NCBI GenBank assembly: GCA_019637755.1
Contig: JAHBVC010000001.1
Location: forward strand, 1,144,480 to 1,208,479
Length of the DNA stretch: 64,000 bases
Direction of reading: 5' to 3'
Origin: Anaerolineales bacterium
GTDB lineage: Bacteria; Chloroflexota; Anaerolineae; Anaerolineales; UBA11579
The notes beneath the pieces are model-generated. The model had not been told where the DNA came from. It did no database searches and was given only the letters and a program-made list of their open reading frames with translations. Made by a program: the position numbers and the translations under genes. This document shows, one piece after another, positions 34,611 through 56,575 of this stretch (within the stretch, counting starts at the first letter, position 1; each line of letters opens with the position of its first letter).

Positions 34611-34629
34611 GGTCGTTCAGCAAGTGCGC

Positions 34630-34730
34630 ATTCCTCCGCCGGCATGATCCGGATCAGGTAGTACGGGTCGCAGACTGCGGTCTGCCTCTCAGCTCCGGCG
34701 GTGTAAAACACCGCAAAGCTCCCCGAGCGA
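34630..34730 (-). ncRNA. TPP riboswitch (THI element)
   Basis: The minus strand carries the conserved core: CGGGGAGC, GCTGAGAG, GACCC, ACCTGATCCGGATCATGCC and GCGGAGGAA in order and at normal spacing. It binds TPP and would lower expression of thiN and the importer when TPP is plentiful. It is followed by a hairpin over the thiN ribosome site. Confidence 0.95.
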
Positions 34731-34746
34731 TTTCAGTTGTAGGTTT

Positions 34747-49243: not shown

Positions 49244-51559
49244 TTACTCGCCCACTGGCGGAGCGTCGCCGCCGCCGTAATCCAACACCTCGCGATGCTG
49301 GGCGCCGGGCTTCTGCGGCCCGATGATGCCGCGCGCTTCCATCTGCTCGATGATGCGCGCCGAGCGCGTGTAGCCGATGCGCAAACGGCGCTGCAGCATC
49401 GAGATCGAGGCGCGGCCACGGCGGCGCACCAGGTCTACGGCTTCATCGAAAATGCTGTCTTGCTCATCTTGATTCTGAATTTCTTCGATCTCTTCCCAAA
49501 TAGGGATCTGTTTGAGCGGCAGATCGCGCGCCAGGGTTTCTTCGCCTTCGTGGTCAGTGGTGAGGCGCGGCGCGCCCGGGTGCACCTGCTCGGCGCTACC
49601 GGCAAAGCTGCGCCAGTGAGTGGTGATGCGCGTGATCTCGCTCTCGGCCAGGAAGGCGCCTTGCAAGCGCACCGCGGCGGGCGCATCTGGCGGTTGGAAG
49701 AGCATGTCACCCTTGCCCAGTAGGCGTTCGGCGCCGGGCTGGTCAAGGATCACGCGGCTATCGGTGGTGCTGGCCACGGCGAAGGCAATACGCGCCGGGA
49801 AGTTGGCTTTGATCAGGCCGGTGACCACGTCCACCGAGGGGCGTTGGGTGGCCAGCACCAAATGGATGCCGGTGGCACGCGCTAATTGAGCTACACGTGT
49901 GATCAGCTTCTCGGTTTGGTCTGGCGCCACCATCATCAGGTCTGCCAGTTCATCAATGATGACGACCAGATAGGGCAACTTGTCGCTCGCGGGTTGGACG
50001 CGTTGGTTGTAATCCGTGATGTGGCGCGCCCCCACTTTGGAAAACTTCTGGTAGCGCTTGTCCATCTCATGCGTGACCCACTGCAGAATACCGACGACGC
50101 GATCGATCTCGACCACTACCGGAGTGAGCAAATGCGGGATGCCGTTGTAGCCGGTCAGCTCGACGCGCTTAGGGTCGATCATGATCAGGCGCAGTGTTTC
50201 CGGCGTGTTGTTGAGCAGCAGGCAGCAGATCAGCGCGTTGACGCACACGGATTTACCGGAGCCGGTGGCGCCGGCGATCAGCAGGTGCGGCATGGCGGCC
50301 AGATCCGCCGAGACGGCATTGCCAGCTACATCCTGCCCGAGGGCGAAGCGCAGTGGCGAGCGCAAGCGGTTGAACGCTTCGCTCTCGACCACATCGCGCA
50401 GCGCCACGCGGCCGATCTGCTCATTGGGCACCTCGATGCCGACATAGCCTTTGCCCGGTACGGGCGCCTGCACGCGAATGCGTGAGGCGGCCAGGGCGAG
50501 GGCCAGATCATCCGCCAGGGCAGCGATCTTGCCGACGCGTACACGCGTGCGGCCACCGCGCGTCTCAACAAATTCTGGCTCTACGCCAAACTGGGTGATG
50601 GTGGGGCCGCGGTTGATCTCGACCACGCGGGCCGGCGCGCCGAAGGAGTGCAAGGTTTCTTCGATGAGTTCACCGCGTTGGCGGTCGGCGTCGGCACTGA
50701 AGGTAAGTACATCGCCGGGGTCGAGCATATCAGCCAGCGCGGGCAATTCCCACACGGGGGCTGCCGCCGGGGCTGCTTCGGCGATCTCTTCCTCAATTTG
50801 TTCAGCCAGTTGCTGCATCTCGGCTTGTTGTTGCGGGCTCACCACCGCCGGCGCCGCTGGGCTGGCCACGGGCAGCTCAGGCTCGGCGGGGTAATCAGGC
50901 TCCAACGGAGGATAGACCTCCCACTCGGGTGGGGCCGCGCTGGTGGGCTGGCGGCGCAGTGTGGCCAGCAAGGGTGGCAGCCAGGCCACCAGGCTACTGG
51001 CGGGCAGATCAAAGCTGAGCAGTACGGCGATCACCAGCCAGGTGAGCGCGCTGACCCACATGCCCGCCGGGCCAAGGCCGGCCAGCAGGGCGTTGTACAG
51101 CCCGGCGCCCACGCGCCCGCCGCCCATGCCTTGCTCGGCGATCTGCAGCGCCGCGCCAGCATCCAGCGGAAAGAGGAAGGCGTGCAGCAGGAACAGTACG
51201 TTGCCCAGTAGCAGGCCGATGCCGAGCAGGCGGCGCAGGCGCAGTGGAGGGATGCGCTCAAAGTGGCGCAGCACCAGCCACCCGCCGAGGACGATCAGCG
51301 CCAGCGGGAAGAGGTAGAGCCCCCAGCCGAAGCCGGCACGCAGCAAGCGCACCCAGGCCGCCCCGAGGTTGCCGGGCGAATCGGAAAAGACCAGCAACAA
51401 GGTGAGGATGCCCAGCCCGGCCAGCAGGATGCCGAGCGCATCCAGCTTGCGGTCTGGCGAGATGCTGTTCCAGAACGATTCGAGAGCCGGCAGGATTTGC
51501 GGCTCATAGGCGCTTTGGTTGCGCGAGCTTTTTTTGGTGGTGCGTTTCTTTTTAGCCAT
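49244..51559 (-). CDS. ftsK: DNA translocase FtsK/SpoIIIE
   Basis: 771 residues. Four membrane helices in the first 190 residues, an acidic linker of about 100, then the motor: Walker A GATGSGKSV, Walker B LVVIIDELADLM, and LATQRPSVDV. The C-terminal gamma winged helix (RRRGRASISMLQRRL, GYTRSARIIEQMEARG) reads chromosome-orienting sequences. It pumps DNA through the division septum. The basic N-terminus (KKKRTTKK) follows a start without a clear Shine-Dalgarno. Confidence 0.95.
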   Translation of the reverse strand: MAKKKRTTKKSSRNQSAYEPQILPALESFWNSISPDRKLDALGILLAGLGILTLLLVFSDSPGNLGAAWVRLLRAGFGWGLYLFPLALIVLGGWLVLRHFERIPPLRLRRLLGIGLLLGNVLFLLHAFLFPLDAGAALQIAEQGMGGGRVGAGLYNALLAGLGPAGMWVSALTWLVIAVLLSFDLPASSLVAWLPPLLATLRRQPTSAAPPEWEVYPPLEPDYPAEPELPVASPAAPAVVSPQQQAEMQQLAEQIEEEIAEAAPAAAPVWELPALADMLDPGDVLTFSADADRQRGELIEETLHSFGAPARVVEINRGPTITQFGVEPEFVETRGGRTRVRVGKIAALADDLALALAASRIRVQAPVPGKGYVGIEVPNEQIGRVALRDVVESEAFNRLRSPLRFALGQDVAGNAVSADLAAMPHLLIAGATGSGKSVCVNALICCLLLNNTPETLRLIMIDPKRVELTGYNGIPHLLTPVVVEIDRVVGILQWVTHEMDKRYQKFSKVGARHITDYNQRVQPASDKLPYLVVIIDELADLMMVAPDQTEKLITRVAQLARATGIHLVLATQRPSVDVVTGLIKANFPARIAFAVASTTDSRVILDQPGAERLLGKGDMLFQPPDAPAAVRLQGAFLAESEITRITTHWRSFAGSAEQVHPGAPRLTTDHEGEETLARDLPLKQIPIWEEIEEIQNQDEQDSIFDEAVDLVRRRGRASISMLQRRLRIGYTRSARIIEQMEARGIIGPQKPGAQHREVLDYGGGDAPPVGE

Positions 51560-51584
51560 TGTTAAATTCAGTTGAGTATACCTA

Positions 51585-51648
51585 CCAGTCGGCTAGTCAG
51601 TTAGTCGACCGGTCAACCAGTTGACTACCCGACTAGCTCATTGCTGAG
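51585..51648. repeat. Degenerate 8-nt tandem repeat, tract 1
   Basis: Eight consecutive octamers: CCAGTCGG, CTAGTCAG, TTAGTCGA, CCGGTCAA, CCAGTTGA, CTACCCGA, CTAGCTCA, TTGCTGAG. Cores such as AGTCGA recur every 8 nt (51587, 51595, 51603, 51611, 51619). It lies between the ftsK start and the -10 box of rnz. Confidence 0.75.
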
Positions 51649-51653
51649 TCAAG

Positions 51654-51659
51654 TACAAT
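51654..51659 (+). promoter_or_regulatory. -10 element of rnz
   Basis: TACAAT lies 20 nt before the TTG start, just after repeat tract 1. The -35 position (51631-51636) falls in the repeats and does not match consensus. Confidence 0.45.
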
Positions 51660-51679
51660 CCCCTCATAAACGAGGAATT

Positions 51680-52624
51680 TTGTTCGAGATCACTTTTCTA
51701 GGCACCTCTGCCTCGGCGCCGTCTGTGCACCGCGGGCTCTCCGCCCACATCATCAAGCATGATGAGTATCGCTTTCTGGTGGATTGTGGCGAGGGGACGC
51801 AGCGCCAGATCCTCAAATCTGGCTTGGGCTTCAAACGCCTCAATCACATCCTGATCACCCACGGCCACCTGGACCATATTTTGGGTTTGGCTGGCTTGTT
51901 CTCCACCTTCACCCGCTGGGAGACGCTGGAGGATATTGAGATCATGGCGGGGAGCTGGACGCTGGAGCGCATTGAGGCGCTGCTGTACGGCGTGCGCGTG
52001 ATCCCCAAGGGCAAACAGAACCCGGTCAACGTCAGCCTGAAAGCGGTGGCGCCGGGGGTGATCTTTGAAACTGAAGATTTTGACATCCGTGCCTTTGCGG
52101 TGAGCCATCGTGGGCCAGACTGTCTGGGCTTTGTGTTTGAGGAGCCCGCCCGCCGCCCGTTCCTGCCCGAGAAGGCCGAGGCGCTGGGTGTGCCGAATGG
52201 CCCGCTGCGCCGCGACCTGGTGCTGGGCAAGACGGTTACATTGCCTGATGGCCACACAGTGCAGCCGCACGAAGTGCTGGGCGAAGAAGTGAAGGGCGCC
52301 AAACTGGTGCACATTGGCGACACCGGCCGCACGGATGATGTCGTGGAGCACTGCCGCGCCGCAGACGCGCTGGTGATCGAGGCGACCTATTTGGAATCGG
52401 AGCGGGATATGGCGCGCGATTTTGCGCACCTGACGGCGCGCCAAGCGGCCGAGCTGGCCGCCGAGGCGGGCGTGGGCAAACTACTGCTCACGCATATCTC
52501 ACGCCGCTATCGCGAGAGCGATGTGTTGGCCGAGGCGCGGGCGATCTTCCCCAATGTGGTTGTGGCGCGTGATTTTGATACGTTCCAGGTAAAGCGGGGC
52601 GAGGTGGTGAAGGTGGAGGATTGA
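51680..52624 (+). CDS. rnz: Ribonuclease Z (tRNA 3'-processing)
   Basis: About 314 residues of the metallo-beta-lactamase fold. It cuts the 3' trailer from precursor tRNAs. Metal motif: ITHGHLDHILGLAGL (HxHxDH), with later GDTGRTDD and the C-terminal LLLTHISRRY. I start at a TTG (51680) so the protein begins with FEITFLGTSASAPS; GAGGA lies upstream. It follows repeat tract 1 and ends just before tract 2. Confidence 0.92.
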   Translation: MFEITFLGTSASAPSVHRGLSAHIIKHDEYRFLVDCGEGTQRQILKSGLGFKRLNHILITHGHLDHILGLAGLFSTFTRWETLEDIEIMAGSWTLERIEALLYGVRVIPKGKQNPVNVSLKAVAPGVIFETEDFDIRAFAVSHRGPDCLGFVFEEPARRPFLPEKAEALGVPNGPLRRDLVLGKTVTLPDGHTVQPHEVLGEEVKGAKLVHIGDTGRTDDVVEHCRAADALVIEATYLESERDMARDFAHLTARQAAELAAEAGVGKLLLTHISRRYRESDVLAEARAIFPNVVVARDFDTFQVKRGEVVKVED

Positions 52625-52680
52625 CCAATCGATGATCGATAATCAAAATCGTCGATTGGTCGATTAGTTGATTTGTCATC
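52623..52680. repeat. Degenerate ~8-nt tandem repeat and hairpin, tract 2
   Basis: Cores AATCGA, GATCGA, AATCAA, CGTCGA, GGTCGA, AGTTGA and TGTCAT recur every 7-9 nt. The first half folds back: GACCAATCGA (52623-52632) pairs exactly with TCGATTGGTC (52652-52661). It starts at the rnz stop codon and could fold as a 3' structure of that mRNA. Confidence 0.7.
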
Positions 52681-52757
52681 ACATCCGCTAGACACACGTA
52701 TTGAATTGAAGCAGCCTAAAAGAGCTTGAAGTTCAGCATAGATACTTCTTGGGCAGT

Positions 52758-52786
52758 TTGACACTGCCCCCCGCTGGCGATATACT
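52758..52786 (+). promoter_or_regulatory. Promoter of the methionine operon with an inverted repeat over the -35
   Basis: TTGACA, a 17-nt spacer and TATACT: the best promoter in the window. The -35 is in the loop and arm of an inverted repeat GGGCAGT-TTGAC-ACTGCCC (52751-52769), a possible repressor site. The predicted start is near 52793. Confidence 0.8.
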
Positions 52787-52841
52787 CACCTCCAATTGAA
52801 TAGGCGAACACGCTTTCGTTCGCCGCGCTGCGCAGCAGCGC

Positions 52842-52942
52842 ACTCATCCAGAGAGGTGGAGGGAATCGGCCCTTTGAAGCCTCGGCAACCCCCTGAAACG
52901 GACGGTGCCAAATCCGACAGACGAATTCTGGGAGATGAGGCG
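52842..52942 (+). ncRNA. SAM-I riboswitch (S-box)
   Basis: The conserved core is present: AGAGAGGTGGAGGG, then CGGCAACC, CGGTGCCAAATCC and GGGAGATGAG. P1 pairs CTCATC (52843-52848) with GATGAG (52934-52939). It binds S-adenosylmethionine and should stop transcription of metH and the genes behind it when SAM is high. A 7-bp GC hairpin (GCGCTGC/GCAGCGC, 52825-52841) abuts the aptamer's 5' end. Confidence 0.95.
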
Positions 52943-52961
52943 ATGAAGTCTAGTTTTCGGT

Positions 52962-52990
52962 CGCCTCTTGTATAGAGGCGTTTCGTTTTT
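52962..52990 (+). terminator. Riboswitch terminator of the metH leader
   Basis: CGCCTC (52962-52967), a 7-nt loop, GAGGCG (52975-52980) and TTTCGTTTTT. The same CGCCTC can instead pair with GAGGCG at 52937-52942, an antiterminator that uses part of P1. This explains how SAM binding switches the hairpins. Confidence 0.88.
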
Positions 52991-53000
52991 AAAGCATCTG

Positions 53001-53048
53001 TTAATCAGTTAATCAACCAATCGATTAACTGATTAAGCAATTAGGAGA
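53001..53048 (+). repeat. Degenerate 8-nt tandem repeat and hairpin, tract 3
   Basis: Octamers TTAATCAG, TTAATCAA, CCAATCGA, TTAACTGA, TTAAGCAA, TTAGGAGA in exact 8-nt phase; the last contains the metH Shine-Dalgarno. The same stretch holds a perfect 14-bp inverted repeat (53001-53014 with 53023-53036) just before that ribosome site. Confidence 0.8.
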
Positions 53049-53053
53049 TTCTT

Positions 53054-56000
53054 TTGAGCACACACCGCACTTACACCCGCCGTGGCTTTTTGGATGCGCT
53101 GGCCAAGCGCGTACTGGTCTATGACGGCGCCATGGGCACCAGCCTGCAAAAGCTCAACCTGACCGCTGAACACTACGGCGGCGAGCAGTACAACGGCTGC
53201 CCGGATTACCTCAACATCACCTACCCCGAGGCGCCTGCCAGCGTGCACCGCTCCTTCCTGGAAGTGGGCGTCGATGTGATCGAGACCAACACCTTCCGCA
53301 GCAACCGCCTGACACTGGGTGAATACGGCCTGGGCGAGCGCACCATCGAGATCAACATGACCGCGGCGCAGTTGGCGCGCAAACTGTGTGACGAATTTAG
53401 CACGCCGGAGCAACCGCGCTTCGTGGCCGGCTCGATCGGCCCCAGCGGCAAGCTGCCCAGCGCCGACGACCCGACCCTTTCGGACATCACCTATGACCAA
53501 CTGGTCGAGCTGTTCCGCGAGCAGGCCGTGGGCCTGATCCAGGGCGGCGTGGATGTGCTGCTGATCGAGACTTCGCAAGACATTCTGGAAGTCAAAGCGG
53601 TGATCAACGGCATCCAGAAAGCCTTTGAGGACACCGGCGAGGTCTTGCCGATCCAATGCCAGGTGACGATGGATGTTACCGGGCGCATGCTGCTGGGCAC
53701 GGACATCGCCGCGGCGCTGACCATTCTGGAGGGCATGCCCATCGATGTCATCGGCCTGAACTGCTCCACCGGGCCGGAACACATGCGCCAGCCAATCAGC
53801 TACCTGGGCGAGCACACCCATTTGCCCGTCTCAGCCATCCCCAACGCCGGCCTGCCGCTCAACGTCAACGGCGAAGCGGTGTACCCGCTGGAGCCGGCGC
53901 CGTATGCCGAAGCGATGGCTGAATTTGTCAGCAAGCACCACGTCAGCGTCGTGGGTGGCTGTTGTGGCACTACGCCTGAGCATCTTAAGTTGCTGATCGA
54001 AACGCTCAACCACCAAAGCGCGCCGGCCCGCCCCACGGAACCGCTGGCGCGTTTGTCGTCTTCGATGCAGGCCACCAGCATGATCCAGGAGCCGCCGCCG
54101 CTGTTGATCGGCGAACGGCTGAACGCCACCGGCAGCCGCTTGTTCAAGCGCCTGCTGATGGAAGAAGATTTTGACGGCATTCTGGAAATGGCCCGCGAGC
54201 AGATCGCCGGCGGCGCCCACACGCTGGATGTCAGCGTGGCGCTGACCGAGCGCCCCGACGAAGCCTACTTGATGAGCAAGGTGGTCAAGAAACTGGCGAT
54301 GGGTATCGAAGCCCCGCTGGTGATCGACTCCACCGAGCCGGATGTAATGGAAGTGGCGCTCAAGATCGCCCCGGGGCGCTGCCTGCTGAACTCCACACAT
54401 CTGGAAGCCGGCCGCCCCAAGATGGACCGCGTGCTCAAGCTGGCCAAGGAACACAACGCCGCCGTGCTGGCGCTGACGATCGACGAAACCGGCATGGGCA
54501 AAACCGCCGAACGCAAGATCGAGATCGCCAGGCGCATTCATGATATTGCCGTGAATGAATTCGGCTTCCGCCCGCAAGACCTGGTGTTCGATGTGCTCAC
54601 CTTCCCGCTGAGCACCGGCCAGGAAGAATTTGCCAACAGCGCGGTGGAGACGATCAACGCCATCCGCGAGATCAAAACTCAGTTGCCTGGCGTATTCACC
54701 TCGCTGGGCGTCAGCAACGTCAGCTTTGGCCTCAGCAAGGCCGCCCGCCCGGTGCTTAACAGCATGATGCTGCACTTCTGCGTGCAGGCCGGGCTGGATA
54801 TGGCCATCGTACATGCCAGCAAGGTCAAGCCCTACGCCGAGATCCCCGAAGAAGAGCGCGTGCTGATGGAAGATCTCATCTTCAACAAGCGCCCGGATGC
54901 GCTGCAGAAGGTGATCGAATTTTACGAAAACCGCGCCCCCAGCGAAGAAGAAGGCGCGGCGGACCCCACCGAAGGTATGACCTCGGAGGAGAAGCTGCAC
55001 TGGAGCATTCTGCACCGCCACAAAGAAGGCGTGGAAGATGCGATTGACGAAGTGATCGGCCGCAAGGAACACGAAAGCGACCACATCACCGCGGTGGGCT
55101 TGCTCAACAACACACTGCTGCCGGCGATGAAGGAAGTGGGCGACAAGTTTGGCGCCGGCGAGCTGATCCTGCCCTTCGTGCTGCAATCGGCCGAAGTCAT
55201 GAAGAAATCAGTCAACCATCTTGAGAACTATCTCGAAAAGGTGGAAGGTGTGAGCAAGGGCAAGGTGGTGCTGGCCACCGTGTACGGAGACGTGCACGAC
55301 ATCGGCAAGAACCTGACCAAGACGATCCTGGTCAACAATGGCTACGAGGTATTCGACCTGGGCAAGCAAGTGCCCGCTGAGACGATCATCAGCAAAGCGG
55401 AGGAAGTGGGCGCCACGGCGATCGGCCTCAGCGCACTGCTGGTGAGCACCAGCAAGCAGATGCCGCTCATCGTCAACGAACTGCAGCGCCGCGGCCTGAA
55501 GTACCCGGTGCTGGTGGGCGGCGCGGCGATCAACCGCCGCTTCGGCTGGCGCATCCTATACACCGAGGGCGGCGCGCCCTACCAACCCGGCGTCTTCTAC
55601 TGCCAGGATGCGTTTGAGGGCCTGGAAACGATGGATAAGCTCATCGACGAGCCCAAGCGCAGTGAGCTGATCGAAGACATCTTCACCAAGGCCGCCAAGG
55701 AGCTGGAGCGCGAGAGCAAGCCGCGGCCGGTGGCACGCGTCACCGGCCGCTCAGCGGTTGGCCCCGCCGCCAAGATCCCCACGCCGCCGAAGTGGGGCGT
55801 GCACGTAGTGAAGGAAATGCCGCTCGATCTGGTGTTCGAGTGCCTGTACAAAAACGAACTGTATCGCCTCTCCTGGGGCGCCAAGAACAAGCAGGGCGCC
55901 GAGTGGGAGCAGATCTCCAAGGAATTTGACGAGCGCCTGGCGCGCATGGAAAAGCACGCCAAGCAAACCGGCTGGCTGAAACCGCAGGCGGTCTACGGCT

Positions 56001-56575
56001 ACTGGCCGGCGCAGGCCCAGGGCGACGAGCTGCTGGTCTACGACCCGGCCAGCCTGGGCTCCGCCAAGCCGACTGAGCTGACCCGCTTCGGCTTCCCACG
56101 CCAACCCAGCGGCGAGCTGCTGTGCCTGGCGGATTACTTCGCCCCGGTGGAGAGCGGCATCATGGATGTGGTCATCTTCCAGATCGTCACCGTGGGCCAG
56201 CGTGCCACCGCCGAGATGGAAAAGCTGCAAGCCGCCGGCGATTACACCGAGGCCTACTTCATGCACGGCCTGGGCGTGCAAAGCGCCGAGGCCACGGCCG
56301 AGTTCTTACACCGCCACATCAAGCGCGAGCTGGGGCTGGAGCCCAAACAAGGCAAGCGCTATTCGTGGGGCTACCCGGCGATCCCCGAAGTAGACGACCA
56401 CGCCAAGGTGTTCGCCCTGTTGCCGGCCGAGAAAGAGCTGGGCATGCAGCTCACCGATGGCTTCCAATTGATGCCTGAGCAATCCACCGCGGCGATCGTA
56501 CTGCACCACCCTGAGGCCAAGTACTACAGCGTGGGCGAGAGCCGCGTGGAACAACTGCTGCGCGAGCGGGGATAG
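53054..56575 (+). CDS. metH: Cobalamin-dependent methionine synthase
   Basis: 1173 residues, the full four-module enzyme. Homocysteine domain 1-330 with zinc Cys in GLNCSTGPE and GGCCGTTPEH; methyltetrahydrofolate domain about 345-620 (LIGERLNATGSRLF); cap and B12 domain about 645-880 with DVHDIGKN, whose His binds cobalt; C-terminal activation domain with the AdoMet-binding RYSWGYPAIPE. It remethylates homocysteine to methionine. The start is a TTG with AGGAG 6 nt upstream. It heads a four-gene operon under the SAM riboswitch. Confidence 0.97.
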   Translation: MSTHRTYTRRGFLDALAKRVLVYDGAMGTSLQKLNLTAEHYGGEQYNGCPDYLNITYPEAPASVHRSFLEVGVDVIETNTFRSNRLTLGEYGLGERTIEINMTAAQLARKLCDEFSTPEQPRFVAGSIGPSGKLPSADDPTLSDITYDQLVELFREQAVGLIQGGVDVLLIETSQDILEVKAVINGIQKAFEDTGEVLPIQCQVTMDVTGRMLLGTDIAAALTILEGMPIDVIGLNCSTGPEHMRQPISYLGEHTHLPVSAIPNAGLPLNVNGEAVYPLEPAPYAEAMAEFVSKHHVSVVGGCCGTTPEHLKLLIETLNHQSAPARPTEPLARLSSSMQATSMIQEPPPLLIGERLNATGSRLFKRLLMEEDFDGILEMAREQIAGGAHTLDVSVALTERPDEAYLMSKVVKKLAMGIEAPLVIDSTEPDVMEVALKIAPGRCLLNSTHLEAGRPKMDRVLKLAKEHNAAVLALTIDETGMGKTAERKIEIARRIHDIAVNEFGFRPQDLVFDVLTFPLSTGQEEFANSAVETINAIREIKTQLPGVFTSLGVSNVSFGLSKAARPVLNSMMLHFCVQAGLDMAIVHASKVKPYAEIPEEERVLMEDLIFNKRPDALQKVIEFYENRAPSEEEGAADPTEGMTSEEKLHWSILHRHKEGVEDAIDEVIGRKEHESDHITAVGLLNNTLLPAMKEVGDKFGAGELILPFVLQSAEVMKKSVNHLENYLEKVEGVSKGKVVLATVYGDVHDIGKNLTKTILVNNGYEVFDLGKQVPAETIISKAEEVGATAIGLSALLVSTSKQMPLIVNELQRRGLKYPVLVGGAAINRRFGWRILYTEGGAPYQPGVFYCQDAFEGLETMDKLIDEPKRSELIEDIFTKAAKELERESKPRPVARVTGRSAVGPAAKIPTPPKWGVHVVKEMPLDLVFECLYKNELYRLSWGAKNKQGAEWEQISKEFDERLARMEKHAKQTGWLKPQAVYGYWPAQAQGDELLVYDPASLGSAKPTELTRFGFPRQPSGELLCLADYFAPVESGIMDVVIFQIVTVGQRATAEMEKLQAAGDYTEAYFMHGLGVQSAEATAEFLHRHIKRELGLEPKQGKRYSWGYPAIPEVDDHAKVFALLPAEKELGMQLTDGFQLMPEQSTAAIVLHHPEAKYYSVGESRVEQLLRERG

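Follow-up and report, generated by a model that had tools for sequence, protein, structure and literature searches.

A strand-symmetric YYRR repeat family in the intergenic spacers of an Anaerolineales genome, possibly renewed by slippage and fold-back template switching

The spacers in the genome of an uncultured Anaerolineales bacterium carry a family of short tandem repeats that follows a pattern of purines and pyrimidines. The code of the arrays is the two-class YYRR-TYRR, a period of 8 built on a period of 4, and it equals its own reverse complement and is therefore strand-symmetric. The arrays occur genome-wide and lie mostly between genes, their hairpin arms are inverted copies of each other, and in a close relative their letters have turned over at positions that were kept. 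We give about an even chance to the view that slippage and fold-back template switching, acting in spacers free of other constraint, have dispersed and homogenised this family. Compensatory changes in stems are usually read as proof of a functional RNA. In the present family both inverted symmetry and compensatory changes are found in DNA that, lying upstream of putative -10 boxes, is probably in part untranscribed. The family could serve as a natural system in which to study template-switch evolution, and it would call for caution in predicting RNA structures in Anaerolineales.

The window, i.e. the whole stretch of 64 kb that was analyzed, is part of a 2.26-Mb genome on two contigs (the source genome, G000). 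At the RNase Z locus, the nearest named relatives are the Anaerolineales metagenome genomes TGS_CHL6, TGS_CHL7 and TGS_CHL2, with protein identities of 98%, 87% and 85%, respectively. The features of the locus are as follows.

49244..51559, minus strand: ftsK, DNA translocase (Pfam), start at 51559
51575..51580, minus strand: putative ftsK -10 box TATACT (from sequence), conserved in the close relative G001 (same box in L084)
51584..51652, no strand: tract 1, YYRR octamer array (score 53) with stem AGTCGGCTAGTCAGTT / AGTTGACTACCCGACT, filling the ftsK-rnz promoter gap
51654..51659, plus strand: putative rnz -10 box TACAAT, conserved in G001, L052 and L053
51680..52624, plus strand: rnz (RNase Z), with Lactamase_B_2 and tRNase Z endonuclease domains
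52622..52680, no strand: tract 2, phase-broken YYRR array from the rnz stop codon, with a 10-bp stem GACCAATCGA/TCGATTGGTC
52758..52786, plus strand: metH promoter candidate TTGACA-17-TATACT (11/12 consensus positions)
52841..52941, plus strand: SAM riboswitch aptamer RF00162 (79.2 bits)
52962..52990, plus strand: terminator hairpin of the SAM riboswitch with T-rich tail (from sequence)
53000..53044, no strand: tract 3, YYRR array (score 41) with a perfect 14-bp stem and 8-nt loop, in the metH 5' leader from terminator to Shine-Dalgarno
53054..56575, plus strand: metH, B12-dependent methionine synthase (Pfam)

The start codon of rnz is likely TTG, judging from a conserved Shine-Dalgarno (SD) and TTG. 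A search of the whole window with the Rfam covariance models returned only the SAM riboswitch and a TPP riboswitch (34614-34735, minus strand), neither of which overlaps a tract. The perfect stem that had been predicted for tract 3 was found as TTAATCAGTTAATC-aaccaatc-GATTAACTGATTAA. For tract 2 the predicted 10-bp stem is present, within an array of broken phase, and this stem lacks a T tail. Tract 1, for which short GU-containing stems had been proposed, does fold on itself and does contain G-T pairs, but its stem is longer than was said and comprises 16 positions (13 Watson-Crick pairs, two G-T pairs and one C-C).

The tracts stand out clearly when YYRR runs are scored with +1 for a match and -3 for a mismatch. 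In the window, the top three segments were 51584-51652 (53), 53000-53044 (41) and 52651-52678 (24), with 21 for the next-best segment and 16-19 for the maxima of five first-order Markov shuffles. At a score of at least 24, we counted 45 runs in 464 kb of the source genome (400 kb chosen around pattern hits plus the window), against 0, 2 and 1 in order-3 Markov copies. The reversed YYRR pattern is YYRR shifted and thus offers no control, so other two-letter codes of period 4 were used instead. Over 864 kb of the source genome, of which about half was selected around hits and the remainder was partly the complement of stretches selected earlier, so that the counts refer to the stretches sampled, YYRR gave 49 runs, YRRR 1, and YYYR and YRYR 0, while the strong/weak codes gave 0-5 and the keto/amino codes 0-1. 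Genome-wide, an exact 24-nt pattern matched 66 times in forward and 86 times in reverse orientation, unevenly spread, most of them falling within contig 2 or the initial 670 kb of contig 1. The original prediction held that the tracts form one repeat family in which the phase is kept and the bases vary; the observation turns out to be stronger than was stated, and neither of the outcomes named as speaking against it, a genome devoid of further tracts or an equal frequency in shuffled sequence, occurred.

The inner structure of the arrays was derived from 88 of them (4.2 kb, from G000 and G001), in which the letter identity between positions 8 nt apart (lag 8) was 0.67, against 0.43 for a lag of 4 and 0.24 for a lag of 7. 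The tetramers alternate between two classes, TCGA/TCAA/TTGA/CTGA and CTAA/TTAA/CTAG/CCAA. Thus the 8-nt alternation of the originally proposed unit, YYRRTCRA, was retained and the unit itself refined to YYRR of period 4 with two tetramer classes. At lags of 16, 24 and 32 the identity fell to 0.65, 0.59 and 0.54, whereas a shuffle of the phase classes within each array gave a flat value of about 0.61. Adjacent units are therefore the most alike, as slippage predicts. In most arrays the units vary within the purine and pyrimidine classes, and a few arrays are near-exact, e.g. (AAACAACC)n. A near-perfect tandem array of the latter octamer adjoins a terminator at L042 16458-16571, and related tracts are present in G001, G007 and G008.

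The arrays keep their phase over up to about 140 nt (L035 8451-8591), which would suit a protein that binds the array and steps along its 8-nt units. Nevertheless, we regard such a protein as highly improbable: 8 nt does not correspond to a helical turn, the letters of the units differ among arrays, the phase is broken by steps of 7-9 nt in tract 2, and no candidate protein was found.

In the stretches sampled, where genes were called with a simple codon-bias script, the arrays lie mostly between genes. The original expectation that copies would lie only between genes holds for most of them but not for all, as there is one in-frame array at L040 10935-10980 (G000:C1 about 615935-615980). It encodes KPTSRLVDQSTGQLVK and sits between the C-terminal domain of a CO-dehydrogenase-type flavoprotein and a 2Fe-2S domain. 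The array differs from its counterpart in G001 by one change in 46 nt, with flanks that differ by ~18%, and it has the look of a former spacer that now links the two parts of a fused gene.

Since YYRR is its own reverse complement, part of the self-pairing comes free. The symmetry goes beyond this, in line with the initial suggestion that the tracts fold on themselves: in 13 of the 45 arrays the best stem exceeded that of phase-preserving (8-nt) shuffles at p<0.05, where some 2 would be expected. Long hairpin stems occur in about 40% of the runs, for example 21 bp at L074, 21 bp at L083 and, the maximum, 27 positions at L043 16586-16655; many arrays, on the other hand, are plain direct repeats that have no strong stem. 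More specifically, 23 of 45 stem bases that break the code were complemented in the opposite arm, where independent arms would give roughly 5%, with the caveat that the choice of a stem itself favours pairing. The arms are thus inverted copies, irregular bases included, as in the quasi-palindromes that arise by template switching, which likewise have arms made alike by inverted copying, show multi-base compensatory changes and do not require an RNA function (PMC8794818, PMC7202029). The known quasi-palindromes are isolated hotspot events, whereas the YYRR arrays form a genome-wide family with a single code. The earlier judgement that simple slippage alone would not account for the tracts was a fair one, because inverted copying is also needed.

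From these patterns we infer a near-neutral process of replication, in which errors would create and renew the arrays in DNA that is under no other constraint. Slippage in steps of 8 nt would make neighbouring units alike and change the length by 8 nt at a time, and fold-back (quasi-palindrome) template switching would turn one stretch into an inverted complementary copy of its neighbour. As the code is self-pairing at each 4-nt shift, a strand that has slipped or folded back could re-pair anywhere, which would explain how the phase is kept while C and T, and A and G, vary. Template switching would also yield inverted copies with irregular bases and compensatory changes without any RNA being involved. 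In E. coli it makes quasi-palindromes more perfect (PMC7202029), and it is known both to generate stems and to mend them, which can look like compensatory change (PMC8794818). Most copies would have no general RNA function, and a few would have been co-opted to serve as terminator or coding linker.

The comparison at the level of arrays involved two species, G000 and its close relative G001. Predicted genes of both sets of stretches were paired, and the 49 syntenic spacers that measured 30 nt or more were compared. An array was present in both species in 13 spacers, in one only in 3, and in neither in 33 (p about 5e-9). The G001 stretches had been selected for strict arrays, so all spacers with any strict array were removed in a retest, and the association persisted (both 4, one 2, neither 33; p about 2e-4). 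The spacer positions are common to the two species and the letters of the arrays are mostly replaced. In tract 1 of G001 (L051) exactly one unit is missing from the loop region, so that it is 8 nt shorter, and its stem is a perfect one of 16 bp. In place of the C-C mismatch of G000 there is T-A, in place of its two G-T pairs there are A-T and C-G, and at one stem position a G-C pair faces A-T, with both sides changed. The compensatory changes that had been looked for are therefore present in tract 1. At the site of tract 3, G001 has an unrelated hairpin of CAGTGA-type heptamers and a different SD; the overlap between the metH Shine-Dalgarno and the last unit of tract 3, originally read as an identity of the two, is thus incidental. 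In other spacers the related species have CTTTGTG hairpins, CATCCTT heptamers or nothing. Transitions outnumbered transversions in the arrays (129 to 65) and not in the flanks (176 to 214), a suggestive difference of little weight, as the arrays were selected by their code, which makes the comparison partly circular, and alignment within arrays is unsafe. Taken together, a shared position with changed letters is better explained by the way in which the DNA of these spacers is copied than by a conserved RNA.

The double change in tract 1 could also be seen as a sign of transcribed hairpins that are kept by base pairing and act as terminators, stabilisers or leader switches, the more so as tract 3 sits in the metH leader and as the array at L048 9147 is a perfect bidirectional terminator, with A and T runs (by eye) flanking a hairpin between convergent genes. 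Several results render this distinctly improbable. Among array spacers, taken with flanks, a stem scoring at least 12 was found in 9 of the 19 divergent ones, in 10 of the 20 convergent ones and in 16 of the 44 co-directional ones, against 21 of 242 control spacers, and this similar excess indicates that the hairpins are independent of transcription. Pairing kept in RNA predicts mainly G-T mismatches on the coding strand, but among the stem mismatches of co-directional spacers, read in the sense of the genes, 18 were G-T and 30 A-C (p 0.11 against equality), which is the wrong direction for RNA; the originally suggested maintenance by RNA structure was thus not upheld. By an automatic count, a T run followed just 2 of the 35 stems that lie close to 3' ends, and we rejected the reading of the arrays as intrinsic terminators, with L048 9147 as a further exception. 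The position of the arrays relative to promoters is equally telling. Arrays commonly end 0-18 nt upstream of a putative -10 box, and many predicted promoters in the G000 and G001 stretches have TATAAT a few bases (4-12 nt) upstream of ATG and lack a recognisable -35 motif. Such promoters suggest that leaderless transcription is common in these stretches, and arrays upstream of the putative -10 boxes are probably untranscribed from that promoter. Indeed, tract 1 lies upstream of both flanking putative boxes, that of ftsK and that of rnz. An RNA element was therefore discarded as the general explanation. A reading of the arrays as tandem -35 boxes was also dropped, since a -35 motif was found neither at promoters beside arrays nor at array-free promoters.

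The main rival to slippage and template switching is selection at the level of the DNA, in which cruciform-prone or protein-bound dyads would be kept as boundaries between neighbouring transcription units, whether for insulation, for supercoil relief or as sites of a nucleoid protein that recognises YYRR. The placement of the arrays is in line with it: they separate divergent promoters as well as convergent genes, follow stop codons and precede -10 boxes. So are the array positions that G001 shares while the letters change. Moreover, spacers free of YYRR are in part occupied by other hairpin or tandem families, as at the tract 3 site in G001 and in spacers 26 and 28 of G006, G007 and G008. However, only a minority of spacers has an array, the same spacer can be empty in other species (nothing was present in spacer 27 of G004, G009 and G010), many arrays lack a strong stem, and the density of arrays along the chromosome is very uneven. 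We therefore consider it unlikely. Unlikely too, in our estimate, is the related proposal that YYRR itself is selected, as a sequence-independent but R/Y-strict and self-complementary DNA signal with which this genus marks the boundaries of transcription units. The signal would be kept by a factor that binds or copies DNA and recognises the order of purines and pyrimidines rather than individual bases. If true, a signal of this kind would be unusual.

Local fold-back does not cover all of the copying. One palindrome of 30-34 nt is nearly identical at four separated G000 loci, far above the expectation from shuffled sequence, with looser copies at two more, and it is nearly absent elsewhere in the genus; some copying between loci, over a long range, is thus needed in addition. 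This could suggest a REP-like mobile family, whose palindromic units are copied by a transposase such as RAYT (Y1_Tnp). The likeness includes short intergenic palindromes in tens of copies (PMC3733652), G000 has one Y1_Tnp gene, and GTAG-type REPs have been reported from some Chloroflexi (PMC3733652). Yet Y1_Tnp is found in nearly all members of the genus, mostly in single copy, in array-rich and array-poor species alike. Of four loci of the gene that were inspected, three (L097, L098 and L100, about 3.3 kb each), the one of the source genome included, have no array beside it, and the fourth, L099, has just one weak segment (score 21). The G001 loci share no unit beyond chance, and inspection of the flanks of 45 arrays revealed no fixed element ends or GTAG tag. 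Where REP elements have a conserved palindrome with a GTAG or CGTC end tag, the YYRR arrays have the one shared palindrome, no conserved sequence or tag that could be seen, and stems that reach 27 positions and contain repeats within their arms. We discarded the link to RAYT, as Y1_Tnp genes and arrays are not associated, and judge a REP-like origin to be improbable.

In other respects the family resembles the TAACTGA heptamers (LSSR/STRR) of Beggiatoaceae, Cyanobacteria and Bacteroidetes (MacGregor 2015, PMC4679880, citing Mrazek 2007). Both consist of short tandem units that are mostly intergenic, often near start codons and patchy across species, with lengths that differ at shared positions, and the YYRR arrays have head-to-tail units in the range of 5-11 nt beyond chance, as follows from the lag-8 identity and the counts given above. 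In contrast, apart from the few exceptions they are not near-exact copies of one unit: the unit is 8 (4+4) instead of 7 nt, highly degenerate yet R/Y-strict, strand-symmetric and present in inverted copies, whereas the TAACTGA repeats are exact and directional and have no predicted structure (PMC4679880). Judged by its sequences, the family thus shares features with the TAACTGA heptamers and with REP elements and fails a defining feature of each. Our search of the literature found no description of this YYRR spacer family.

Among 61 genomes (the source genome and relatives), 22 contained a 28-nt pattern, which was richest in G000, G001 and G008 of the genus and in G028 and G029 from outside the family. 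A stricter pattern occurred in 17 of 400 genomes of the phylum, mostly as near-simple arrays of TCAG or TCAA tetramers. From both scans the octamer form would therefore belong mainly to this genus, with a scattered presence elsewhere in the order. Why the code should be frequent in G000, G001 and G008, but not in the remaining species of the genus, is not accounted for by a neutral process alone.

The genus has several repeat families side by side, as degenerate heptamer arrays of the AGCCGTA/AGCTCTA, GCTTATG and CAGTGAACAG types fill other spacers (L096 680-755, L044 12150-12200 and the promoters of L078 and L080). In addition, L096 has tandem copies of CCTAAAGGATTCCTCCCTCGCTGCGCTCGGTTCGGAATGACA at 780-1500, spaced ~110 nt apart, the core of which is dispersed through the source genome and its relatives.
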